A stretch of 64,000 nt of DNA from Plazaster borealis (Eukaryota > Echinodermata > Asteroidea > Forcipulatida > Labidiasteridae): the NCBI GenBank assembly GCA_021014325.1, contig JAJGQC010000627.1:1-64000 (forward strand), in the 5' to 3' direction. The translations under genes and the position numbers were made by a program. The notes below the pieces were generated by a model that worked only from the letters and a program-made list of their open reading frames with translations, was not told the DNA's origin and did not search any database. Numbering within the stretch: position 1 is the first letter of the stretch; each line of letters begins with the position of its first letter. Below, one piece after another: positions 4,326 through 56,590 of this stretch.

Positions 4326-4664
4326 AAACCCCTGTTAGATCATTATTTAAAATAAACATGGACTTTGATTCTAATGTTGTGTTTATGGGGGGTTTTAATC
4401 TCCACAATAACCCGGACAAATTGCACTAGTTACTTATCTTTTTGCGAATTTTTTTTATTTTGTTTAACCGAAGTCATTAAATATGAATACATGGCGTGAT
4501 TAAAGAAAATAAAACTAGAAACAAGTGTTCGTAAAAACAAACACAGATGGGTTTCGGTTGGTAGAACAAAAAGATTAAATATCATGATTTCATACTGAAA
4601 ATCAATCGTCATATCAAATAATAAGCTAAGTTTAGTCGTAAACCCCTTTAACTTACTGTATAGA

Positions 4665-5150
4665 CCGTAAGGAAAGGTCAAAGTGGGGTATGTTTTTGAA
4701 TAGCATGTCAAATGTGTAAGATTATGACTTTATTAAAATGTGGTTCAGGAGAGATGATTTTGTATCTTTAGAACTTCCTCTTTAAACCAGAAGGAAATAT
4801 CAAGTGGGATCATGTTTAAAAGAAAGGAGTGTCAATGGCTACAAGAGGGCACAAAGATTATGTCTTTATGACATGTGATTAGGAAAATGTGATTTTTGTT
4901 TTACTTCCTGTTCCAACAGGAAGGAAAGGTCAAAGTGGGACATTTTTATAATAAAATGTCAAATGTGTCATAAGCTACAAGACGGCTTAAGGATGGTGAC
5001 TTTATAACACGTGGTTCAGCAGATATGATTTGTTTCATTTTAGAGCTTCCTGTTTGAACCGGAAGTACGAGTAAAAGTGGGTCACATTTTAACGATAAAT
5101 GTTACATGTGCTGTGAGCTTCAAGACGGCACAAAGATTATATCTTGATAA
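4665..5150. repeat. Tandem array of about 130-bp monomers with CTTCC...GGAAG palindromes
   Basis: Roughly three and a half diverged monomers each contain AGGAAAGGTCAAAGTGGG or a close variant, a 'gctacaag(a/g)(c/g)gg' word and a 'cttcctgtt..aac.ggaag' inverted motif. The same palindromic theme recurs in the array inside nvd-B intron 2. Confidence 0.65.
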
Positions 5151-5832: not shown

Positions 5833-6104
5833 TTCATTTACCTTTCAATCCAAGAGTTAAGTTCATTCCTTTACCCAATCTATAGTTTACGGAGCCCGGG
5901 AAGGGACAGTGAAAGAAAACAATATGCAGGGGTTAATTCGTTCGCACGGTTTAGTAATCTGTTCGAACGAGTTTATAATCTGTTTGCACGGTTTAATAAT
6001 CTGTTCTAACGAATTAGGAATCCGTTTGCACGGATTAGCCAAGGCACAAACTGGCGCTGCACGCATGCGTAAATGATCCCCTCACAACAACACTTTGCTT
6101 CAAG

Positions 6105-6224
6105 ATGGCGGAGGGCCGTGACACAAAAAGTTCTGACATATATGATGATGACCTTGTTGGTAAGTTTATCAACGATGAATCGTTCGAACGGATTACATTT
6201 CTCCGCCTTCTTAAGGATCATTGA
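6105..6224 (+). CDS. Short ORF inside the fold-back arm (39 codons)
   Basis: The ATG sits in CAAGATGGCGG, a good initiation context. The peptide starts MAEGRDTKSSDIYDDDLVG. A GTAAGT donor follows codon 18 (at 6160). The opposite arm, read on the minus strand from 6751, has the same start (MAEGSDASSSDISDN) and again a donor-like GTAATT at the equivalent place. The peptide is not recognised. The pattern suggests that both arms derive from the first exon of one gene, either of an autonomous parent element or a captured host gene. Translation is unproven. Confidence 0.25.
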   Translation: MAEGRDTKSSDIYDDDLVGKFINDESFERITFLRLLKDH

Positions 6225-6239
6225 TTAAATCACACAGAG

Positions 6240-6660
6240 TATTAGATGTTCAATTTGGCTGCATGCAGGTCGTGAACTGGCCCCTGTTTGGTTTCCCTTC
6301 CCTATTGTTGTTTCTGTGTTCATTGTGTTTGTTGGTCATGCGTGGGGTAGCATACTTCCGAGCAACAGTAATTTAGTTTACTTTTGTTACCCCTGACCCG
6401 CATGATTGCTCCGCCCTCAGTCGCCCTCATTTAGTTATTTATTAATTTATATATTTATTTAACATTTATTTAATATTTTTTATTTATGTTTTCTCTTTTA
6501 TTTTCTTATTTAATTTATTTGTTAATTTATATAATTTTGTATTTATTTTTCTTATTACTTGCTTTTTTCTACCTGTTTTTTATTTAATGTTCTTTCTTGT
6601 GCTATTGTAACTTTGGTTTGTTTGTTTTGGTCGAATAAATAATAATAATAATACTAATAA
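6240..6660 (+). repeat. AT-rich central insert with (AAT)n tail, possible LINE 3' end
   Basis: The segment runs from a G+C-normal start through long T/A runs to 'tcgaataaataataataataat'. It interrupts the inverted arms of the fold-back element. A 3' tail of short AT-rich repeats fits a LINE 3' UTR on the plus strand, but no coding remnant is visible. Confidence 0.3.
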
Positions 6661-7539
6661 TGCATCTTTATCCATGATAAAGATTGACAGAATTACCAAC
6701 ACGGTAATTATCGGATATGTCAGAACTACTTGCGTCGCTGCCCTCCGCCATCTTGAAGCATTGTTGTTGTTAGTGGATGGTACGGATTACTAATTTATTG
6801 GCACGCAATACTGAACTGTTGGAACGGACTACTAAAATTCGTTCGCACTGATTACTAAACCGTGCGAACGGATTAATATAATTCATTCGAACGGCTTATT
6901 AAACCGTGCGAACGGATTACTAAATCGTCCGAATGGATTATTAAACCGTGCGAACGGATTACTAATTCGTTTAAACGGATTATTAAATCGTTCGAACGGA
7001 TTACTAAACCGTGCGAACAAATTAGTCCCTGCATATTTTGTTTTCTCCTCCTGTCCCTTCCCGGGCTCCGTAAATGTTACTATAACAGTGACGTAAATCC
7101 CTGTTGGAAACTAGGGGAGATTTCACTTTTGTGTATCTGCAGCTTCGAAGGGTTTTCAAAGTCCCACCATACGGTGATACTGAAATACGGATGTTGCGTA
7201 AGTCCTTGTATAGCAGGGGCGAGTCTGGGGTTCATCAGGGTAAAAGCATCGTTGCCTTTTCAGCACAGATACTTGGCTTGAGAATTAAAGGAGATAAATT
7301 GTGGGGTGTTTTAATTGTCAAGTTAATGCTGAAGTATAGGCTTTCTGAAAAAATACACTATTTTGTTCAGGTTCATTACCAAAGTATGACCCTACGTTTA
7401 ACCGGGTGAACTTGTGTGTATGGGTTAAGGACGCCAACTACAAAACCACATATGGGGGAAAACATTACATACGAACCACTAAGCTGAAGCAACCATTACA
7501 AACCCTCACAGTTTGGCAATAGGTCAGTCGGTAGGTACA

Positions 7540-8830: not shown

Positions 8831-11800
8831 GTAAGTGAACAACACAAATCCAAATTGTTTAAGAAGCACGGAGGAGGCCTCTAGTATCAGGGATTATTCA
8901 ACAGCACCGCGTCTAAGCTTTCTGTTAATTCAGTTAATTTGTATTTTTATTTTGTTTGAGTAATTCAAAGCAATTGTAGGGAAAGCTATCATATGATCAA
9001 TTATGTTTTCGAAAATAATGTTTCAAGCAAGAAAAATCCTAAAGAGGAAAGATTCATTAAATATGTCAATTTTTTCCCCTGGTGATCGCCAATCAGTATA
9101 ACGTCTTCTTAATTTCCCCGTTATCAAGGTATGAATCTTGCCGTATTCCGTGGAGAGAGTGGTCGCTCTTACATCTTAGATGCGTACTGTCCTCATCTTG
9201 GAGCTAATCTTGGGATAGGAGGTACAGTGGACGGTGACTGCATCGCTTGTCCATTCCATGGTTGGACGTTCAGTGGAGACGATGGTAAATGCGTCAAGAT
9301 TGCCTACGCAGACAAGGGTAACGTTCGTGTCCCTTCTGTTTCTGTCTTTTTTCATGATTTATTAGGTGTTCGTGCAATATGAGCACGAACACCTCTTTGT
9401 TTTTGTTCTGTTTTTTAGGTGTTCGTGCAATATGAGTACGAACACCTCTTTGTTATTGTTCCGTTTTTGTTTTTTGTTTTGTTTTTTTTAGGTGTTTTCA
9501 GCAATATGAGCACGAACACCTCTTTGTTATTGTTCCGTTTTTTTTTTTTTTTTTTTTAGGTTTTCGTGCATTATGAGCACTAACACATATTTGTTTTTGT
9601 TCCGTTTTTTTTTTTTTTTTTTTTTTTTCTTCTCCTTCTTCTTCTTCCACTCAACTCATCTCTGGATCATAACTCTAGATTGAAACTGAATTGAACCTTG
9701 AAACTCATCAGATAATTGAACCTTAATAAGAAGACGGCACAGTTGTCATTACGTCATGATGACGTCATCAGGTGTTGAATTACAGGGTTTTTAAAGTTGA
9801 AAATGACCTTTGCTTTTGCTGTATCTCAACGAATATGAAAGCTATGATGTTCAAAGTTTTTGCATCTGATAGACCAAGGTGGGGGCAACATTTGAAAAGT
9901 TAACGCCGAAATTGTACGACCCTAGCTTCCGGGTCGTTACCCTGGGTCGAAGTTCACCTTCGTTTTTCGTCAAAAACAACTTTCGAGCTTATCTACGGAA
10001 TAACTCAAGATTGAGATTGAATTGAATATTAAAACTCAATAGATAGTTGAACTTCAGTATCGAGACAACACATACCTAATTACGTCATGATGACGTCATC
10101 GGGCATTAAATTACAATAAATCAAAGTTTAATATTTGTAAAAATCATAACGCAAAAACTATAATTCGGATTTTGGCAATCTACACATCATCGGATAGGTC
10201 GTCAAAAGTTTGACAAACGCTTCACAAAACCCGTACAATATTTTAACTTACTTTTGGTTCAAAACGGAAGTTTAAAATTTCGTAATATCTTATCGTATTC
10301 ATATCTTTAAAACTACTGATCATTTCAGCATAATTTTTGTATCAGATTGTAGAACAGCAATCCCTCTTAAACTTTTGCACAGAGATAACAACATTTTAAC
10401 CTTGAACATCTTGTCAAAAGCGGACAACGATGGGCACCTTCCCACTCGTACCCCCTCCACTTTAATTGACAAAGCATTATGTACCCATAACGTTAAAACT
10501 CATGCAAGCTACAGTTCACGCGCTGACTGTTTGTACTGTCGCCGTCCTTGTTTGTTAGATGTGGCAGCGGCAAACAACATAATCAACAGCGCCCTCTTTC
10601 GTTGAATATTAAATAAACAGCGCTGATAATAGAATCGTTTTGGGGGGCTTATCTACGAAATAACTCAAGATTGAAATTGAATTGAACATTGAAACTCATA
10701 GGATAGCTGAACCTCAGTATCAAGACAACACAAACTTAATGACGGCTTGATGACGTCATCGGGCATCGAATTATAATAAATCAAAATTTTATATTTGTAA
10801 AATTCATAATTGACAAAGCATTATGTACCCATAACGTTGAAACTCATGCAAGCTACAGTTCCTGCGCTGACTGTGTGTACTGTCGCCGTCCTTGTTTGTT
10901 AGATCTGGCAGCGGCAAACAAAATATTTCAACGGCGCCCTCTTTCGTTGAATAAACAGCGCTGATAATAGAATCGTTTTGGGGGCTTATCTACGAAATAA
11001 CTCAAGATTGAAATTGAATTTAACATTGAAACTCATAGGATAGTTGAACCTTAGTATCAAGACAACACAAACTTAATGACGTCTTAATGACGCCATCGGG
11101 CATCGAATTATAATAAATCAAAATTTATCGTTGTAAAATTCATAACTCGGGAACCATTTATTTGATTTTTACTATCTACACATCATCGGATAGCTCATTT
11201 AAAGTTCGACGAACGCTACACAACACCTTACACTCTTTGACCTTGACTTCCGGTAATATCTTATCTTATTAATTATCTTTAAAACTACTGAACATTTCAC
11301 GTTCCCAACAACATATATAATTTTCATGGCCAGAAACTTCTTTAAATAAAAGTACTTGACTAAAAGAAAATCCGGCCCACGTAAACCTCCTTAAGGTTGG
11401 GACCACAATGGTCCCAGATGTTCGAATACGCGTGAGACTTGCACAGTCTATAAGTAACAACGTCTTGCACCAACACTACCATATCAGCTGCATTCATGAT
11501 CAATGTAAAAAAAACCTAAACCATCTAAAAGGTAGTCAAAAACTAATCACGCGCTATAAAAATGTGACCCTATTTGACCTTGACTTCCGGTCAAAACCGG
11601 AAGTTGATGTTTAATTTTTGAAAAATTCATAACTCCTGAACCAGGAATTGGATTGATAAGGTATAATGACCTATTCATTCAATCACTCACCACGAACACC
11701 GTGTTTTTGTAGTAGACAAAAACTCAAGGTCTAGTTTTTTTTTCTTCTCCTTCTTCTTCTTCCACTCAACTCATCTCTGGATCATAACTCAAGATTGAAA

Positions 11801-14800
11801 CTGAATTGAACCTTGAAACTCATCAGATAATTGAACCTTAATAAGAAGACGGCACAGTTGTCATTACGTCATGATGACGTCATCAGGTGTTGAATTACAG
11901 GGTTTTTAAAGTTGAAAAATGACCTTTTGCTTTTTGCTGTATCTCAACGAATATGAAAGCTATGATGTTCAAAGTTTTGCATCTGATAGACCAAGGTGGG
12001 GGCAACATTTGAAAAGTTAACGCCGAAATTGTACGACCCTAGCTTCCGGGTCGTTACCCTGGGTCGAAGTTCACCTTCGTTTTTTTTTTCGTCAAAAAAC
12101 AACTTTCGAGTTTATCTACGGAATAACTCAAGATTGAGATTGAATTGAATATTAAAACTCAATAGATAGTTGAACTTCAGTATCGAGACAACACATACTT
12201 AATTACGTCATGATGACGTCATCGGGCATTAAATTACAATAAATCAAAGTTTAATATTTGTAAAAATCATAACGCAAAAACTATAATTCGGATTTTGGCA
12301 ATCTACACATCATCGGATAGGTCGTCAAAAGTTTGACAAACGCTTCACAAAACCCGTACAATATTTTAACTTACTTTTGGTTCAAAACGGAAGTTTAAAA
12401 TTTCGTAATATCTTATCGTATTCATATCTTTAAAACTACTGATCATTTCAGCATAATATTTGTATCAGATTGTAGAACAGCAATCCCTCTTAAACTTTTG
12501 CACAGAGATAACAACATTTTAACCTTGAACATCTTGTCAAAAGCGGACAACGATGGGCACCTTCCCACTCGTACCCCCCCTCCACTTTAATTGACAAAGC
12601 ATTATGTACCCATAACGTTGAAACTCATGCAAGCTACAGTTCCTGCGCTGACTGTGTGTACTGTCGCCGTCCTTGTTTGTTAGATCTGGCAGCGGCAAAC
12701 AAAATATTTCAACAGCGCCCTCTTTCGTTGAATAAACAGCGCTGATAATAGAATCGTTTTGGGGGGCTTATCTACTAAATAACTCAAGATTGAAATTGAA
12801 TTGAACATTGAAACTCATAGGATAGTTGAACCTCAGTATCAAGACAACACAAACTTAATGACGTCTTGATGACGTCATCGGGCATCGAATTATAATAAAT
12901 CAAAATTTTATATTTGTAAAATTCATAATTGACAAAGCATTATGTACCCATAACGTTGAAACTCATGCAAGCTACAGTTCCTGCGCTGACTGTGTGTACT
13001 GTCGCCGTCCTTGTTTGTTAGATCTGGCAGCGGCAAACAAAATATTTCAACAGCGCCCTCTTTCGTTGAATAAACAGCGCTGATAATAGAATCGTTTTGG
13101 GGGCTTATCTACGAAATAACTCAAGATTGAAATTGAATTGAACATTGAAACTCATAGGATAGTTGAACCTTAGTATCAAGACAACACAAACTTAATGACG
13201 TCTTAATGACGTCATCGGGCATCGAATTATAATAAATCAAAATTTATCGTTGTAAAATTCATACCTCGGGAACCATTTATTTGATTTTTACTATCTACAC
13301 ATCATCGGATAGCTCATTTAAAGGTCGACGAACGCTACACAACACCTTACACTCTTTGACCTTGACTTCCGGTAATATCTTATCTTATTAATTATCTTTA
13401 AAACTACTGAACATTTCACGTTCCCAACAACGTATATAATTTTCATGGCCAGAAACTTCTTTAAATAAAAGTACTTGACAAAAAAAGAAAATCCGGCCCA
13501 CGTAAAACTCCTTAAGGTTGGGACCACAATGGTCCCAGATGTTCGAATACGCGTGAGACTTGCACAGTCTATAAGTAACAACGTCTTGCACCAACACTAC
13601 CATACTAAAAGGTAGTCAAAAACTAATCACGCGCTATAAAAAATGTGACCCTATTTGACCTTGACTTCCGGTCAAAACCGGAAGTTGATGTTTAATTTTT
13701 GAAAAATTCATAACTCCTGAACCAGGAATTGGATTGATAAGGTATAATGACCTACTCATTCAATCACTCACCACGAACACCGTGTTTTTGTAGTAGACAA
13801 AAACTCAAGTCTAGTTTTTTTTTTCTTCTCCTTCTTCTTCTTCCACTCAACTCATCTCTGGATCATAACTCAAGATTGAAACTGAATTGAACCTTGAAAC
13901 TCATCAGATAATTGAACCTTAATAAGAAGACGGCACAGTTGTCATTACGTCATGATGACGTCATCAGGTGTTGAATTACAGGGTTTTTAAAGTTGAAAAA
14001 TGACCTTTTGCTTTTTGCTGTATCTCAACGAATATGAAAGCTATGATGTTCAAAGTTTTTGCATCTGATAGACCAAGGTAGGGGCAACATTTGAAAAGTT
14101 AACGCCGAAATTGTACGACCCTAGCTTCCGGGTCGTTACCCTGGGTCGAAGTTCACCTTTGTTTGTTTGTCGTCAAAAAACAACTTTCGAGCTTATCTAC
14201 GGAATAACTCAAGATTGAGATTGAATTGAATATTAAAACTCAATAATAATAATAATAATAATAAGACTTGTAATGCGCACATATCCACCCTGCTGGGTGT
14301 TCAAGGCGCAGTAAAAAAACAAAAAACAAAACAAAACAAAACGAAGACAAAACAGACACAACAAAATTAGTCCTTGAAAACCTGTGACATAAGATGAGTT
14401 TTGAGAAGAGATTTGAATTTTGTGGTACAAAGACAAGATCTAAGATTAAGCGGTAGAGAGTTCCAGATGCGTGGCGCAGCTGAAGAAAAAGACCTGTCAC
14501 CCCATCAGTGTCGAGACTTGGGTTCAATGAGGAGAAGCATGGAACTTGATCGAAGATTCCTTGATGGAGTGTAAACTTGAAGTAGTTCAGAAATATAGTG
14601 GGGAGCCTTGCCATTAAGTGCTTTGTGGACAATGAGCATCAGCTTGAAGATGATTCGTTGAGAGATAGGGAGCCAATGTAGTTGTTTCAGAATGGGGTGA
14701 TAGAACAGGATTTTCTAGACAGTGTCACAATGCGGGCAGCGGTATTTTGGAGGCGTTGAAGACGGGAAATCTGGTTGTTAGGAAGACTGTAGAGAAGAGC

Positions 14801-17800
14801 ATTGCCGTTGTCAAGACGAGAAGTAACAAATGCATGAATGACCTTTTCAGTGGCACTTTTGTCCAAGTACTTGCGAATCTTACCAATATTCCTGATGTGA
14901 TATGATGACAGACGAACGATGTTGTTGATGTGTGGTTGAAGTGTCATCGATGAATCAAAAATAACCCCTAAGTTCCGAGCTTGCAGCGAGGGAGCTATCC
15001 GAGCATCACCGATGGAAATGTATGGCTCTGAAACCTTTGTTAACTGTTGACGTGACCCAAATAGAAGGAACTCTGTCTGATCATCATTTAACTTCAGGAA
15101 GTTTTGTTGTGTCCAACGTCGAATCTCTTGGATGCATTTCTCAAGTCTTGCAATAGATGCATTGGCGTTTTCTTGAGAAGATTTAAACGTGATGTATAGC
15201 TGAGTGTCGTCTGCGTACACATGGTAATTCAGATTAAATTTCAGGATGATGTCACGAATCGGTAAAGTGTACAGCGTAAACCACTGCGGGCCCAGTACCG
15301 ACCCCTGTGGCACAGAGTAGTTCAAAACAACAGGGTCTGATATTGCGGTGCCAATACATACATGCTGAGTTCTATTGTAGAGATACGATTTGCACCATGC
15401 TAGGGCTGTGTCCTCTATGCCAAGGTGATTCTGGAGCCGAGAGAGAAGGATGTTGTGATCAACAGTGTCAAAGGCAGCACTCAAGTCTAGCAGGACTAGT
15501 GCTGTTAGGTTACCATTGTCCATTGCAGAAAGAATATCGTTGCTCACACGGACTAGTGCAGCTTCTGTCCCATGGAAAGGCTTGTATGCTGACTGGAACA
15601 CGTCGGACAGGTTGAAATTATGAATGTGATCAGAAATGCGTGATGAAACTACTCGTTCGATGACTTTTCCAAGATATTTTAAGTTTGCAACCGGTCTGTA
15701 GTTTTGAATATCTCCTTGTCCAGGTTTGGTTTCTTGATGAGCGGCCTGATGTAGGAAACTTTGAGGCTATCAGGAAACAACCGGAACTGAGAGATTCGTT
15801 TACAAGATTAGTGATGTAGGGTAAAAATATATCAATGTTTTGCTTCATCATGGATGTTGACACTGGATCCAGCTCACAGGATTTTGAAGGAGATTTCATA
15901 ATAACCCTTTGAATCTCAGCAACAGTGGCAGGCTCAAACACAGATAGTCTGCACTCTGGTTGAAGATGTGGCAATGTCTGCGGCACGTTGTAAGGGACTG
16001 ATGAAATGATGAGCGGATGTCTGAAATTTTGGTGACAAAGAATTTCTGGAATTCATTTGCCAAGTCCTGATCATTGTAAGTGGATGGAAGGACGGGGGTT
16101 TTGGGTTTGAGCAACAACTTACCAATTATCTTGAAGAGCTTCTTTTGATCTCCTGAGGATTCTTGTACTTGGGATGAATAATAGGTGATCTTTGCCTGGT
16201 TGATCAAATTCCTGACTACTTTACATTGGTTGCGATATTCTTGTCGTTGTATTTCCAACTTGCCATTTTTCCGCCATTTCCGCTCAAGTTGACGACAGAT
16301 CTTTCTTGCTGTACGAATATCATCATTGAACCAAGAAACTTCAGTTCGGACCTTGACTGATCTTGTTTTCCAGGGTGCGTATTTATCCAAGATGTCACTG
16401 ATAGTACTCTCATATTGGCTGACATAGGAATCCAAGCAGCCGTGATCAATTTCCAGCTTTGCTAAATGAGTTCCTATGTCGCGGAACACTTCAGGAGAAT
16501 TCACATGTTTCCACTGTCGGCTCTTTATAGTGACGGTTGGGACTTTGGGCTTGCACAGACTCAAGTTACACATGACTGCATAATGGTCTGAAAATCCAGG
16601 TAGAATAACAAAGTTTGAGACAATAGGTGGGGTGATGTCACGAGTTATGACAAGGTCCAGGCAATGACCGAGACGATGAGTCGGCTCCTTGATATGCTGG
16701 GTAAGACCGAAAGCCTGAAGTAGATGCTTAAACTGGTTTGCATTGGTGTTGTGGATGTCATCAACATGAATGTTAAAGTCACCGGTGATGATGATTTCCG
16801 ATGGATGAAGGAGATATTCTAAAATCAAATTCTCAAATTCCTTAAGAAAACTTGAGAAAGTCACATGTTGGCCGTTAGAATCTCTTTCAGGTCTGTATAC
16901 AATGACAAGGCGAACAGATTTAGAGTTTCCGGAAACCTCAGCATGAAGAGATTCAAAAGTTGTGTATTGGACGTCATTACTTTTCACAGAGACAGATAAA
17001 GTAGATCTGTACAGTATTGCAACTCCTCCACCGGTCTTGTGAGGTCTTGGGATGTGTTGAAAGTAGTAGCCAGCAGGGGTACACTGACGACATGTTAGGT
17101 TGTCATCTGGTCTCAGCCATGTTTCTGAAACGGCAACAAGGTCCAGATCTTTTTGCAGAACAAAATCAGCAAAATCGTCATACTTGTTACAGATGGACTG
17201 TGTGTTCAGAACACAAAGGCTGAGTTGAGATTTGGCAGGAGTCACTGGTGCTAGAACAGATGGGGGTGTAACTTCAGGTATAGGGAGTTTATTAACAGTT
17301 CTACGGCGACCAGCTTTTACCACGATGTGTAGGTCGGTAAACAGTGCTGGGATTTACAAAAAGGCCAAGATTCTGCAATGTAAATTTACAGGAAGGCAGA
17401 GTTGAGGCACGTGTGGATGGGGCATAACGGAGACTGAGAAGCTTGTTACGTGAGTAGGAATTTGCAGAGTTTGGACTAGCTTCTGCTGAGTTTGAGTTAT
17501 TTTCAGCTTCAGGGCCAGGATTTACAGCAATGTCACCGAAGATCACAATTTCCAAATGAAAAGTGGCTGGGGAATTGTCATAATATGACACAGGGCGTTT
17601 CAAATATTTTCGATGCTGGATGAATCCTAGCTGTGACTTTGGCAGAATGCAAGCACTAAGCCCAATTGATGCTGATGGAACAAAGCTGACCACAGATGAG
17701 TCAGTGCAGTACAATGGTCTAGCAAGCAGGGAGAGAATAAAAAGGATACTTACCTCCATTGTCCCCAGATGGGCGAACAATGTCCATGGACGAGGTGGCT

Positions 17801-20800
17801 GACTGCACAGCATGCAGCCACCAAAGTGTGTGTTAGCTTTGTACACCAGAATTTTCAAATGAGACAGTGAAAAATTCCAACAGAAAAACACTATTTACAC
17901 AACTCAGATGACTCCAGGACACACAGAAAAAAGACTTGTAGATTCCAGGTGTAGTAACAAATCCAGTTGTATAAGAATAAGAACACAAAATGAGCAATAT
18001 ACTAAGAAATTAACAAACAAATACAGAGCTGATTTGAGTGGCTGCTGTCAGGCGCTCAGTCAAATATGATCAATAGATAGTTGAACTTCAGTATCGAGAC
18101 AACACATACTTAATTACGTCATGATGACGTCATCGGGCATTAAATTACAGTAAATCAAAGTTTAATATTTGTAAAAATCATAACGCAAAAACTATAATTC
18201 GGATTTTGGCAATCTACACATCATCGGATAGGTCGTCAAAAGTTTGACAAACGCTTCACAAAACCCGTACAATATTTTAACTTACTTTTGGTTCAAAACG
18301 GAAGTTTAAAATTTCGTAATATCTTATCGTATTCATATCTTTAAAACTACTGATCATTTCAGCATAATTTTTGTATCAGATTGTAGAACAGCAATCCCTC
18401 TTAAACTTTTGCACAGAGATAACAACATTTTAACCTTGAACATCTTGTCAAAAGCGGACAACGATGGGCACCTTCCCACTCGTACCCCCACTTTAATTGA
18501 CAAAGCCTTATGAACCCATAACCTTAAACTCATGCAAGCTACAGTTCACGCGCTGACTGTGTGTACTGTCGCCGTCCTTCTTTGTTAGATGTGGCAGCGG
18601 CAAACAACATAATCAACAGCGCCCTCTTTCGTTGAATATTAAATAAACAGCGCTGATAATAGAATCGTTTTGGGGGCTTATCTACGAAATAACTCAAGAT
18701 TGAAATTGAATTGAACATTGAAACTCATAGGATAGTTGAACCTCAGTATCAAGACAACACAAACTTAATGACGTCTTGATGACGTCATCGGGCATCGAAT
18801 TATAATAAATCAAAATTTTATATTTGTAAAATTCATAATTGACAAAGCATTATGTACCCATAACGTTGAAACTCATGCAAGCTACAGTTCCTGCGCTGAC
18901 TGTGTGTACTGTCGCCGTCCTTGTTTGTTAGATCTGGCAGCGGCAAACAAAATATTTCAACAGCGCCCTCTTTCGTTGAATAAACAGCGCTGATAATAGA
19001 ATCGTTTTGTTGGGCTAATCTACGAAATAACTCAACATTGAAATTGAATTTAACATTGAAACTCATAGGATAGTTGAACCTCAGTATCAAGACAACACAA
19101 ACTTAATGACGTCTTAATGACGTCATCGGGCATCGAATTATAATAAATCAAAATTTATCGTTGTAAAATTCATAACTCGGGAACCATTTATTTGATTTTT
19201 ACTATCTACACATCATCGGATAGCTCATTTAAAGTTCGACGAACGCTACACAACACCTTACACTCTTTGACCTTGACTTCCGGTAATATCTTATCTTATT
19301 AATTATCTTTAAAACTACTGAACATTTCACGTTCCCAACAACATATATAACTTTCATGGCCAGAAACTTCTTTAAATAAAAGTACTTGACTAAAAGAAAA
19401 TCCGGCCCACGTAAAACTCCTTAAGGTTGGGACCACAATGGTCCCAGATGTTCGAATACGCGTGAGACTTGCACAGTCTATAAGTAACAACGTCTTGCAC
19501 CAACACTACCATATCAGCTGCATTCATGATCATTGTAAAAACCTAAACCATCTAAAAGGTAGTCAAAAACTAATCACGCGCTATAAAAATGTGACCCTAT
19601 TTGACCTTGACTTCCGGTCAAAACCGGAAGTTGATGTTTAATTTTTGAAAAATTCATAACTCCTGAACCAGGAATTGGATTGATAAGGTATAATGACCTA
19701 TTCATTCAATCACTCACCACGAACACCGTGTTTTTGTAGTAGACAAAAACTCAAGGTCTAGTTTTTCTTCTCCATCTTCTTCTTCTTCTTCTTCTTCCTG
19801 GAACTCTACTCTAGAGCATAACTCAAGATTGAAACTGAATTGAACCTTGAAACTCATCAGACAATTGAACCTCAATATGAAGACGGCACCAACTTACTGA
19901 CGTCATGATGACGTCATCAGGTGTCGAATTACAAGGGTTTTAAAGTTGAAAAATGACCATTTGTTATTGGCTGTATCTCCTTGAATTTGAAAGCTGTGAT
20001 GTTCATAATTGAGCATCGGATAGATCAAGACTTGGGCAACATTTCAAAAGTTAACGCAAAAATCGTATGACCTTTGCTTCCGGTCGTACCGGAAGGTCAA
20101 AGTTTGCCTTTGTTTGTTTTTCTTAAAAAATGAATTTCGGGGCATAACTCAAGATTAAAATTGAATTGAACATTGAAACTCACCAGATAATTGGACCTCA
20201 ATATCAAGACGACACAAACTTGATGATGTCATGATGACGTCATCAGGTATTGAATTAAAATGAGTCAAAGTTTAATATTTGTAAACAAATCATTACTCTT
20301 GAACCACATATTGGATTTTTACAATCTATACATCATCGGATAGGTCGTTAAACGATCAACAAAAGGTACACAAAGTATGACCCTGTTTGACCTTGACTTC
20401 TGGTTCAAACCGGAAGTTGAAAATTTCACAAAATTCTTATCTCAAAACCACGTATTTTTTTATCAAAGTTTTTGCATCAGGTGATAGATGATTGAGCCTG
20501 CTCAAACTTTTGCACAGACATGACAACATTTTGACATTTACATCTGGTCAAAACCGGACGTTAAAGCCAACGTTGGTTAAAGCGCACGTGTCTCTTGACG
20601 TGACTCACGTTGACAACGCACGACGGCACAACAGTGTATTAACACATGTAGGCACTACGCACACACTGAACATGCACGTAGCACGTGAGCACGTGTAGTT
20701 AGTTTACATTGTGTATAGTCTTGGTTCCAAGACGCTCCGGTTGAAGACTAATGTATGTACTGTACAGCTACATGTATGGATACATTTGGCGTGACTGTGC

Positions 20801-23800
20801 AATATACAAAGAAACAACGAGCGAAAAATGCAATATTTGAAAATGTTGTAACTCTTGAACCACACATTGGATATTAACAATCCATACATCATCTGAAAGG
20901 TCTTAATAAACCTAACACGCGCTACACAAACTGTGACCCTGTTTTACCTTGAATTCCGGTTAAAACCGGAAGTTGAAGTTTAATATTTAAAAATATCTTA
21001 ACTTCTGAACAACTCATTCGATTTTTACAATCTATTCATCATTGGGAAAGTATGTAACAACTTTAGAAACGATATACAGAATGTAACCCCAATTGACCTT
21101 TACTTCCTGTTCAAACCGGAAGATAAAATTTAAAATTTGAAAAAATCAGAACTCCTGAACCACACATCGGTTTTTTATCATCTATACATCATCAGAAAGG
21201 GCTCCAAAGATTTAAGAAACGCTACACACTGTGACCTCATTTGACCTTGACTTCCGGTTCAAACCGGAATATGAAAGTAAATGTTCCAACAAATTGTTGG
21301 AGGTTTACAATCCATACATCATCTAAATCATCTTCATAAACTAAACGCGCTACACAAAATGTGACCCCTATTTGACCTTGACTTCCGGTCCAAACCGGAA
21401 GTTGATGTTAATTTTTTTGAAAAATTCATAACTCCTGGACCAGGCATTGGATTGATAAGGTAGAATGTTTATTCATTCAATCACTCCCCACGAACACCTT
21501 GTTTTTGTCACATGACAAAAACTGAAGCTCTAGTTTTATTTTATTTTGTATTATTTTGTACTTTATGCAGTCTTGTAGCTTACAACACTTGTAACATTGT
21601 ACTTCAAAACATGACCCATTTTCACTTCCGGTTCAAACAGGAAACTCTAAAAAGTAATGAAATCTAATCTCCTGAACCACATGTCAAAAATCAAAGTCTT
21701 TGTTCCATTTTGTACCTCACTACATATTTTATTCAAGACATGACCCCACTGTGACCTTCCATGATGGTCCAAACAGCAAGTTCAAAGAGTTCCTTTAGGG
21801 TTTACGACCAAACTTAACATATTGGATATGACATGTTAATTTCTCTTTTTGTTTCACCAAGCGAAACCCGCAGTGTGTGTTAGGGAACAAACACGTTTCT
21901 TATTACTATTGTCTCTTTTAATGTTTTTAAACTTGTACAAAACGTACGATTCAGCCTAACCCGGCTGTGAAAGTGTTTTTATTGTAATAAACCATTCAAT
22001 TCAATTCAATTCAATATACAATTAGAATGATAACATTCGAGTCCATAGAGAAGAGTTTGTTTGTTTCTTTGTTTGTTGGGGTGTTTGTTTGTTTGTTTTT
22101 ATTGTTTGTTTTTATTTCACAAGTTATTCCTTACAATGATGGTCACTACATGGGCGATCAAGATCAATCTATTGCAAAAGAAAAACGAATTTACAACTGA
22201 ATTTCCTTTTACAGTGCCCGAATTTGCTAAGGTAAAGACACATCGTTCTTTGGAGATCAATCATCTGATCATGATATGGTACCACGCTGAGGGAGAAGAA
22301 CCTTCCTGGTTCCCACGTGAGATTGAGGAAGTCAAGAGTGGTAAATGGATTTACCAAGGATTCAGTGCTGCCTTCTTTGATTGCCATATACAGGTTCTTG
22401 TAATCTTGTATGAAATTATTTTCACATTCTTACATGCGTGATATAAACAATGATCGCGATTGGAAAATGTTTACCCCTGCAGGGCACAACGTTTTCAGTT
22501 TAACACTGACAGAGACATGTGTGTGGAAGAACCTTCACAAATTAGCCACAGTTATTTGTCAATAATGTTCCCAGAGTAGGATTATGTCGGTGTTGTTATT
22601 TCGATGATGAGAAGTACATGATTTTACCGAACCCGCCAAGCTGCGTGCCCCTGAAGTGTACAGCGCTTAGATTGCCTTGCCTCCCGAACACCATTGATGT
22701 AATACTTGGCACAATAACTTATTAACTGCTAAGACCCCTCTAATCAGAATTTTTTTTCTTCAACTAATTGGAATATAACTATAATCTTACAGGATATTGC
22801 AGAGAACCATGGGGATGTACCACACTTACATTACTTACACGCGTCGTAAGTATAACATATTTAATTTGTACATTTCTTCCTGCTGTCTTCATAGACTGGT
22901 CCCTTGTATATACTACAGGCCCACTCAATGATTTCACTGGATAAACTTGCAGTGACGTAACCTTTCAATGTTGTGTTACGGTTGGTCTGCTCCTAAGTGA
23001 CGTAGTTTGTCAGCTACATCAGCAGCAGTTAAAGGCATCGTACACGTTTGGTAATTGAAGCCTATTGTTTGTTTCAAACCTATATAGTTGTAGATATATA
23101 CCATTAAACTAACCTGTGAAAATTTCATTTCAAAAGGTGGTAGCGTTTTTCAGATATTGCCGAAAATCTGGAGCGGTTATGTCCACGCAGGAAGACTAAT
23201 CTGCATGGAATACACACTCAGAGAAGCGTTACGCGTAACACTTCTCAGATTCAAATGTTTTTGGGGATAAAAAGTGATATATATTTTCCAAAACCGCAGT
23301 ACTTCAAAGTGAAAAGTTTCTTAAAATGCATTATACTATCCAAAGCTGCTGTACTTCTTACCAAGTAATGTTGTATTGCCATTAATTATAAGAGTCAATA
23401 CTAAACGTGTACGATGCCTTTAACTGTACTTTCGATCGTCTGCTGATGCTAATGATTGTATGTAATGTTGTTTTATTCACATTGTTGTGTGTGTTTGTGT
23501 GTGTTTATACTACTAATATCCGTCCGCATGAATTGGGACGCGAGGTCAAAGGTAAATTTGGCAGGCGGGCAAGAACGGAATCTGGCGTTGTTCACGAGCC
23601 TGGAAGTGTCACGTCAGATGTTCAGGCTGTTGTCTTCATTGATGCTTTCTTAATGTATTTGGCTAGAGGACCGAAAAACCTTACATTTTGTTATTTTAAT
23701 AGTTCAAGACTATGTTTGTGAATGTTGTGATGGTGGTGGTGTGTGTGGTGTTGCATGCAATCGTTGCCATCGTCGTCGTCTTTGTCGTTGCTGTTGTTGT

Positions 23801-54059: not shown

Positions 54060-56590
54060 CATCCTGTTTCACCTGCTTGTGAGTCGTGACAAATCAAGTC
54101 GCAGCGCCTTATATTCACGGCCTTATATTCATGCGGATTAGACATACATGCACTATTTGTCATGTAATATAATTCCAGACACTATGATCACATGAGTATT
54201 TGTTTTCCTCTTTAATAAGACACAATAATGAAGTAGGTTATTGCAACGCAAATAACAATTATCCCCTACCGAAATAGCCTTCCAGAGGTTTTTAGAACCA
54301 ATGGTTATATTAATTTAGACCATGCATTGTTTTTCTGTCTCAGGTCTGTGTCGTTGTTTTTACAGCCCACGTATTTTTATGTAAACAACACATCAGCAAC
54401 AACCATTGCACATGATATTATTAGCAACGCAATACGCTGTTTGCAATGGTCCTGGCGACTTAATTAAATTTGCAATAATAAATAATTGTCACCAGATAAT
54501 GCAATCCCCGTCCCAATTACACTACAGTGGGTCTAATGTTCGACATATATTCCTTGAAGATAACAGTATACTTCATGCAGTTTCCATTGTATATGATGTG
54601 TTGCCTGTCTAAAACATACTCTTTAATCTTAGCCCAACCCCACCACACCCCCATCCGCTAAACAAATTATTTATCGAGCGAAGACTTTATTTTTCTGTGA
54701 ACTCAATCTTCTTTTTAAATTCTATTTACGCACAATTTTTGAAAATGAAAATACCCAAATAAATTTCTTATAAATAAACTTTCAATTTGTATTTGATACT
54801 ATTTGTTCAAATTAACATTAAAATAAAATTTTAAATTGGGAAGACGATGAAACCCCATTTGCTAATCACTCACGAATTTGTGCGACCATCACATAGGCCT
54901 AGGTTTAATGTATAACTAATGTAAGTTGGGCAACATTCATATTTCTGTAAAAGTAACTGGAAACAGAGGTCAAGTCCTAGTATCGGGTTGTTCTTTGCTG
55001 ATTTGTTTACAAAATTTACATTTATATATTCATTGCTAAATTTTACTTATCCTAACAATACGGTATAATTTGTCATAAACTACTTTAAACTAACAATACG
55101 GTATAATTTGTCATAAACTACTTTAAACTAAAGCATTTGAAGAAACGGAATCGAGCACACAAGTAAAACTCATTATGGTTGGGACCAATTTGGTCCCAGA
55201 AGTTCGATTACGCGTTTAGACTAGAACACTTTATTGGATACAACTGCAGAGACGGACCTGAAGTGTAGAGGTTGTGAGGAAAGAAGCAAACACAATCTCG
55301 GTGAGAGCTTGATGCTGCATGGAGGATAGTAACTCAAGAGCCTGGAATAACGTAGCCCCTGGAAAATACCCAGAGAGTAATTAACATAATATCGAAGAAA
55401 AACCAAAACGTCCAACACACTAAGACCACATATGAAGTTGTCAACGCTGCCCAACAACCTTATCAAATGAAATCAATTTCTCGATAAAGTATGACTAGTT
55501 TGAAACTAAAAGCGTGTACTGAGCCGTGCTGATGGCGCCAACGCAAATGCATTTATAGATTGGCCAAATAGAGCGACTGGTATTTTTAGAGAACGAATAA
55601 TTATTTGAAGTGACAATTGAAACGCGTGGCTATGATGAATGAAGCTTGCTATTCGGGCTGAACATGTTCAAAGGGGAAATGAAGTGGCCCACTCGACCGC
55701 AGTAACTATCTGATCGGTTGTAACTGCCCTGCAGTTTTTCAGAGCGTGTGTAAGTCTTGCGCTACGCTATGCTAACTGGGGCACCTGGGGCACCTGGATG
55801 CATACCTGTTTTAGTTCAATTCAAATCGGATCTAAATTTAGAAGGTGAAGCACAAATAAAAGTCATTGTACAATGGCATCATCACGCCGCCATCTTGGAG
55901 GTAAAACTACGATGAAACAATGAGAACACAAAGCGTCGCAGTGCGGAGCACAGCTCATTTTATTTGAAATACCAGCGAGCAACTATCTGTCAGAGGGTGC
56001 CCTACTCAAATGACGTCATGTGTAGAAGCTCTAAAAAGCAGTTGGAAATTGGTATAGAAAGGTACTTCTTCAACTGTAGAATGAAGCAGTCAACTTACGT
56101 ACAAACATGTAAACTACTCTTGCAATATTTTACAATCTGTCAACTACATCCTACCTTTAACAAAGTTTCAAACCGTATGGACAAGCTAATGTCTGAGAAG
56201 TCTCCCGAATTTCGAACAGTAGAATAAAAAGCAAGACAAATTATCAAAGAACAAAATCTACCTAGCAAGTAGACATAAACATGGTGTTACCGCAAACCAA
56301 ATATATATTGATACCTCACCATGTAATGCCTCAAATCCTATAGACAAGCTAATGATTTACATATTAATTATACAAACATATATATTGTTATGACCAACAG
56401 AGACTTAAATCTGTAAAACTGAAGCTTCTGTCACAGTGCTTTCTTGACCTACTATCGACAAGCTGCAACAGAGTATACGCGCTTGTGAATGGGTTGATTA
56501 TACACTTTGGTTGTTCATATTTCATAATTCACGTGAAAGAAAATAAATAAACAAATAGAAACGAAGATATATGTTTTCAATTGTTATTTC
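54060..56590. other. Gene-free stretch
   Basis: AT-rich, no exon recognised. A 35-bp direct duplication (aacaatacggtataatttgt) lies at 55055-55125, and CGCCGCCATCTTGGAGG is at 55888. Confidence 0.4.
55160..55215. repeat. Fragment related to the Helitron-like array
   Basis: TTGGGACCAATTTGGTCCC with AGTTCGATTACGCGT corresponds to 11396-11437 in array unit 1, so the family also exists outside the array. Confidence 0.55.

Follow-up and report, generated by a model that had tools for sequence, protein, structure and literature searches.

Introduction

Canonical Helitrons begin with TC at their 5′ end, terminate with CTRR at their 3′ end and insert between A and T. The plan described for HINEs, which are non-autonomous Helentrons, comprises a 5′ subterminal inverted repeat (subTIR) with a complementary inverted repeat (IR), a microsatellite, satellite-like central repeats, a 3′ subTIR, a 3′ palindrome and a T-rich target (PMC4067079, PMC7492417). 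Further HINE characters are numerous interspersed copies sharing the same ends, insertion at TT or T-rich sites with no duplication of the target, and dependence on an autonomous partner that encodes Rep, helicase and endonuclease. DINE-1-like elements and Helentron proteins are known from sea urchin (PMC4067079), and an echinoderm host of such elements is therefore unsurprising. Tandem Helitron insertions were previously known from bat, fly, rice and maize, and Fusarium elements of the Helitron2 type carry stacked short 5′ ends together with one 3′ end, an arrangement explained by self-insertion (PMC5148889). In fly populations, transposon dimers were reported to arise mainly from insertion-site preference (PMC12628747). 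The route leading from Helitron-type elements to tandem arrays and satellites is still argued. We describe here a locus of the sea star Plazaster borealis formed by head-to-tail copies of one small gene-less rolling-circle-type transposon that abut at T-runs. It lies within the first 64,000 nucleotides of contig JAJGQC010000627.1 (assembly GCA_021014325.1), a stretch designated below as the window and to which all positions refer. The element is very probably a HINE, an assignment made on anatomy; to the examples known from oyster, fly, mite and fungus it probably adds one from a sea star.

The overall plan and the lack of coding capacity are shared with HINE/DINE-1-like elements such as the oyster Cg_HINE and the mite HINE-Mo (PMC7492417, PMC4067079), and the 5′ subTIR is accompanied by a complementary IR as in Cg_HINE. 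The locus differs from these elements, as presented in those reports, by having four stacked 5′ modules and four 3′-ended bodies in one place and by the CTAG at the 3′ end; the likeness to published HINEs is one of plan. FoHeli of Fusarium oxysporum (Helitron2 type) also has asymmetric terminal inverted repeats and several short 5′ ends before the body, but its multiple 5′ termini are described with a single 3′ terminus whereas here the 3′-ended bodies are multiplied too (PMC5148889). Head-to-tail Helitron-type units likewise characterize the tandem centromeric Helitrons of plants (Xiong et al. 2016 as described in PMC12628747). In many of those arrays several 5′ ends accompany a single 3′ end, in contrast to the several 3′ ends and one 5′ cluster found here. 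A 3′ hairpin positioned 10-11 nt before the end and a CTAG that fits CTRR are shared with canonical Helitrons, in the comparison given by PMC5148889, while subterminal inverted repeats, a palindromic 5′ end and a T-rich context instead of A/T set the element apart from them. No sea-star HINE array is named in the listed titles and abstract openings on Helentron/Helitron in echinoderms, sea stars, satellite DNA, nesting and self-insertion, which is no proof of absence. We regard the locus as belonging to a known kind of composite; it is well preserved, has novel details and is only moderately surprising. It keeps stacked 5′ modules and stacked 3′ ends readable, with their relative ages; nesting, exchange and rolling-circle models become separable here once other genomic copies are compared.

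Anatomy of the Array Units

Three near-identical units of about 2.1 kb (U1-U3) and one older relative (U4) are arranged head to tail, as stated in the original prediction made from the DNA letters (Table 1). Together with the 5′ modules (see below) they sit wholly within one intron, a location that had also been correctly recognized, and occupy most of its length. Pairwise identity at aligned positions is 98.5% for U1/U2, 98.7% for U1/U3 and 98.6% for U2/U3; that of U4 with these units is 67% overall. In blocks of 100 alignment columns, U4 is closest to U1 at the extremities (the initial two blocks at 84 and 86%, the final two at 94 and 87%), with 10 of the 11 blocks of columns 900-1999 at 40-57% and the remaining one at 70%.

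All four units terminate in the same manner by the subterminal repeat CACGAACACC, a hairpin, a spacer, CTAG and then T or T-rich sequence. The common ending proposed earlier (hairpin, CTAG, T) stands in 4/4 units, with a spacer of 7, 6, 7 and 7 nt in U1, U2, U3 and U4 rather than 7-8 nt. By DNA folding, the stem has 8 bp and the loop 5 nt in U1-U3 (z −2.2 to −2.3), against 9 bp and 4 nt in U4 (z −3.2); a stem scan tolerating one mismatch finds 10-bp stems in U1-U3 and 9 bp in U4. The compensated 10-bp stem attributed to the oldest unit is not found, U4 having an extra C-G pair and no compensatory change. The 8-9 bp palindrome stops 10-11 nt before the end in every unit, within the 8-35 bp from the 3′ end expected for HINEs. 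The inverted end represented by CACGAACACC had been placed inside the 3′ hairpin, yet in all units this 3′ subTIR is located upstream of it. Measured from the CTAG end, this repeat extends from 43-45 nt (first base) to 33-35 nt (last base), a borderline distance when compared to the “approximately 38-60 bp” given for mite elements, for which the accompanying text leaves the base of measurement unstated.

The 5′ part of the units is made of a T-run and a CTT tract, followed by a body whose central repeats measure ~150 bp in U4 and consist of a duplicated 337-bp segment in U1, U3 and likewise U2. The first 337-bp copy of U2 resembles the second copy of the same unit (conversion), showing that exchange between repeats operates at this locus. 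Five open reading frames (ORFs) of 130 or more amino acids overlap the array; all are found in the long interspersed nuclear element (LINE) that splits U3, one of them extending 6 bases past this insert. Absence of coding capacity, a microsatellite and central repeats are likewise HINE attributes. The array is flanked by TTTATT on the left and TTTTATTTTATTTTG on the right, and its left end begins with T(T)AGG. The T-run lengths may be affected by assembly error.

A search of both strands for a hairpin followed by CTAGTT retrieved five sites among 29 CTAGTT, namely the four unit ends and position 4515 on the minus strand. In random sequence with the same dinucleotide transitions (100 runs) the mean was 0.94 and the maximum 5. 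Given these values the count is supportive but not decisive, and weak alone. It is the matching of the four unit ends that carries the case. The motif CACGAACACC, with at most one mismatch, occurs 16 times in the window (2.95 expected; 0/100 shuffles reach this number): ten matches are in the 5′ stack or in unit ends and the other six, all with one mismatch, are scattered elsewhere.

The segment 13450-13572, internal to the units (GGTTGGGACC..GGTCCCAGA.GTTCGA.TACGCGT), is 75% identical to positions 55112-55234. The match adjoins a 38-bp tandem duplication and is perhaps a captured piece or another repeat.

Table 1. Features of the Plazaster borealis locus (positions in the window).
Feature	Positions	Strand	Length	Description
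LF1	9364..9410	+		Outermost 5′ module; perfect 12-bp palindrome, 5′ subTIR and complementary IR, 7-nt loop
LF2	9417..9463	+		3/47 substitutions relative to LF1; z −5.3; followed by an interrupted T-run
LF3	9490..9537	+		Left arm mutated; z −2.2; followed by 20 T
LF4	9558..9604	+		Most decayed; z −0.9, fold equalled or bettered by 40/200 shuffles; 24-T run behind it
U1	9606..11734	+	2129 bp	T-run, CTT microsatellite, body with central repeats, 3′ subTIR at 11691-11700, hairpin, CTAG; start arbitrary, within the 24-T run
U2	11735..13814	+	2080 bp	Plan as U1; start without 5′ module
U3	13815..19761	+	2117 bp without insert	Plan as U1; split by the LINE
U4	19762..21533	+	1772 bp	Older relative; conserved ends, different middle, 150-bp central repeats, 9-bp 3′ hairpin, CTAG
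LINE	14246..18069	−	3.8 kb	Insertion in U3, in opposite orientation; TCAATA repeats on either side
B1	4515..5135	−		Family B copy; repeats spaced ~135-145 bp; upstream limit not a defined boundary
B2	21561..21906	+		Decayed family B copy right after U4, in the same orientation, without recognisable 5′ end; left limit from about 21561, right limit set by eye
Host intron	9318..22214	+		Flanked by the Rieske exon (9129-9317) and by the exon that begins at 22215; from splice sites and spliced translation (donor 9318, acceptor 22214)

The 5′ Modules

Directly to the left of U1, the segment 9364-9604 contains four tandem copies of a palindromic 5′ module of 47-48 bp (LF1 to LF4). LF1 reads AGGTGTTCGTGC, 7 nt and GCACGAACACCT, and folds as DNA at −14.3 kcal/mol (z −7.8). 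Its arm is the exact inverse of the 3′ subTIR CACGAACACC. A palindromic or IR-paired 5′ subTIR and a 3′ subTIR inverted relative to it are both part of the HINE plan, in which the 5′ subTIR lies 2-4 nt from the terminus; this spacing fits if the terminus is within the T's just before 9364. Among the head-to-tail transposon copies of the array, the leftmost alone retains what looks like the true beginning of the element. The left limit of 9604 proposed originally overlooked this stack and should be moved to ~9361, since the modules belong to the element. A T-run is found behind each module, and the last one (24 T) is followed by the CTT tract that opens U1. Besides these four copies stacked at the far left, no further 5′ module was detected in the window.

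Junctions and Relative Ages

The junctions U1/U2, U2/U3 and U3/U4 read CTAG-T9-CTTCTCC, CTAG-T10-CTTCTCC and CTAG-T5-CTTCTCC, respectively. All three fall in a T-run and none carries a 5′ module (0/3); a T-run also precedes CTTCTCC behind LF4. The units had been interpreted as rolling-circle products joined end to end. The signature of such a joint is CTAG followed directly by the true 5′ end (AGGTGTTCGTGC...GCACGAACACCT). As no internal junction has a 5′ module, simple rolling-circle joints of this type, with full-length elements linked end to end, were rejected.

The 5′ modules differ from each other at 3-8 of 47 positions and U1-U3 by 1.3-1.5%, so that the 5′ stack looks older than the amplification of U1-U3. 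At a divergence of 1.4% the differences among LF2, LF3 and LF4 have P values of 6e-4, 6e-6 and 5e-7, figures that treat sites as independent while the altered stretch of LF3 may correspond to one event. LF1 and LF2 are closer (3/47, P 0.03). Given the mismatch between the divergence of LF2-LF4 and that of U1-U3, the equal number of modules and bodies (four each) cannot be taken as the record of four recent nested insertions.

Differences among U1-U3 are found in 41 columns. When polarised by U4, 20 of them are private to one unit (8 in U1, 6 in U2, 6 in U3), 16 are unpolarisable and five are common to two units; three of the latter are in one misaligned T-rich stretch, one is in the poorly alignable middle and the remaining one, column 363, is a possible change shared by U1 and U2. 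The unpolarised private changes (15/14/12) are uninformative on branching, as every two-state difference among three sequences is private to one. U1-U3 thus hardly differ in age, and a pairing of U1 with U2 is slightly supported at best. Such ages fit either a quick local amplification or the insertion of one concatemer.

Origin of the Array

We estimate at about 55% the probability that the locus is a composite of HINEs grown by events at T-runs, with an older self-insertion phase and a recent amplification of U1-U3. This growth route is less sure than the identity of the element. The intact element would be composed of the 5′ module, a poly-T/CTT microsatellite, the body with its satellite-like central repeats, the 3′ subTIR, the hairpin and CTAG. 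It would reside in a T-rich target and be moved by a Helentron Rep-helicase encoded elsewhere, a partner enzyme that we infer together with T-run-directed self-insertion and unequal exchange, whereas the anatomy, the boundaries, the relative divergence of the copies and the interruption by the LINE are directly observed. In the older phase, elements of the family would have entered the T-run between the 5′ module and the body of a resident copy. Such an insertion would stack 5′ modules on the left and 3′-ended bodies on the right, with junctions of the type CTAG-Tn-CTTCTCC devoid of a 5′ module. Later, the amplification of a single body unit lying between the 5′ stack and U4 would have yielded U1-U3, unequal exchange involving the T-runs on either side being the most likely route. 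The LINE subsequently split U3. Insertion into the LF4 T-run, or exchange at it, would produce exactly the observed junctions, the 5′ modules being left behind at the left.

The composite history is favoured by the presence, in order, of the HINE parts (subTIR with IR, microsatellite, central repeats, 3′ subTIR, hairpin, T-rich flank), by the occurrence of four 5′ modules and four 3′-ended bodies, and by the common orientation of the four array units and B2, as expected were T-runs strand-specific targets. It also draws on the T-run position of all three junctions devoid of a 5′ module, on the apparently greater age of the 5′ stack relative to U1-U3, on the conversion in U2 and on the self-insertion by which stacked 5′ ends are explained in Fusarium (PMC5148889). 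Several points weigh against it. Neither a copy of this family outside the array, nor an empty site, nor a partner gene was seen in the 64-kb window. A history of pure nesting requires bodies and 5′ modules of the same age and LF2-LF4 are too diverged to partner U1-U3, so that two processes must be assumed. The equality in number of modules and bodies may result from coincidence or from tandem duplication of the short module, and the near-equal age of U1-U3 also fits a single concatemer event. The latter could have occurred if the Helentron Rep read through the 3′ hairpin, or used as template a circle without the 5′ module, U1-U3 being inserted at once as a concatemer. We consider this read-through unlikely. 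The near three-way split of private changes among U1-U3 (8, 6, 6 among the 20 of 41) and the near-identical T9 and T10 junctions, positioned exactly at CTAG, agree with it, and a joined-end product suggesting circles is known for a Helitron2-type element (PMC5148889). However, the 5′ end of the element is absent from the joint in 3/3 junctions, and published tandem Helitrons, as described in PMC12628747 and PMC7492417, are of opposite polarity, with a single 3′ end for several 5′ ends, or with 3′-cut inner copies. There is a small chance that the internal poly-T between 5′ module and body is usable by the Helentron machinery as an alternative 5′ start. If so, units made of body and 3′ hairpin would be circle-copied and inserted in tandem, giving multimers that combine a single 5′ end with many 3′ ends, a polarity reverse to that of known tandem Helitrons.

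Nesting could also account for the whole locus by four successive self-insertions, each adding a 5′ module and a body, with LF1 pairing with U4 and LF4 with U1. The four modules, the four bodies and the T-run at every joint are in line with this scheme, but LF4, expected to be the youngest module, is the most decayed. Moreover, LF2-LF4 differ by 11-17% against 1.3-1.5% for U1-U3, which would need a later homogenisation of the bodies alone. The divergence mismatch rules out four nested insertions with one 5′ module each as the sole history, and pure nesting is on the whole improbable. An ordinary satellite, or local tandem duplication without transposition, is the least credible origin and very improbable. 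It would explain head-to-tail copies and internal repeats of 142-337 bp, but the array is bounded on both sides by ends of transposon type, and a separate family with the same 3′ end plan is found at 4515(−), with a decayed copy at 21561-21906. The subterminal inverted repeat and the 3′ hairpin support the earlier view of a Helentron-type element rather than an ordinary satellite.

Neighbouring Elements and Host Gene

The LINE has matches to the Pfam domains RVT_1 (E 7.6e-28) and Exo_endo_phos (E 1.5e-19). Its endonuclease and reverse transcriptase are in different frames and its 3′ end is a TAA repeat. Among the best 120 matches listed for the reverse transcriptase, four carry the name of an organism, in each case an echinoderm (Asterias, Apostichopus twice, Anneissia). 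Pfam comparison of 7 of the 16 window ORFs of 130 or more amino acids found the reverse transcriptase in one, the LINE-type endonuclease in another and nothing in five.

The spliced piece of the host gene contains a Pfam Rieske domain (E 9.8e-21). In database comparison Asterias amurensis ranks first, with its cholesterol 7-desaturase nvd (74% over the whole query), ahead of Patiria and Acanthaster. The host of the array is a Rieske/cholesterol 7-desaturase (neverland, nvd) gene. A PDB search with the reading frame of the first exon gave 0 matches, and no Rfam family reached the gathering score in 9000-22500.

B1 and B2 are decayed copies of a second Helentron-like family, called here family B. 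The 3′ end of B1 consists of the hairpin GTGTTTGT-TTTT-ACGAACAC (one mismatch), 6 nt, CTAG and T. The best BLASTN segment between B2 and B1 has 151 identities in 212 columns (71%). Scanning of viral and prokaryotic contigs for the 3′ end gave one and three matches, respectively, in unrelated contexts and without the hairpin-CTAG end, and these were taken as chance; four further scans of viral contigs gave no match.

Two other repeats lie in the left part of the window. A foldback-like element at 5886-7074 has 40-bp ends that are 88% complementary (TTTACGGAGCCCGGGAAGGGAC...). Inside each end lies a 21-bp tandem array (5940-6038 and 6822-7018), the two being in inverted orientation. The segment 5616-5805 is a 31-bp tandem array (ACCCATCCACCGATGTGTGGTAAGCGGTTTC) with 6.1 copies at 79%.

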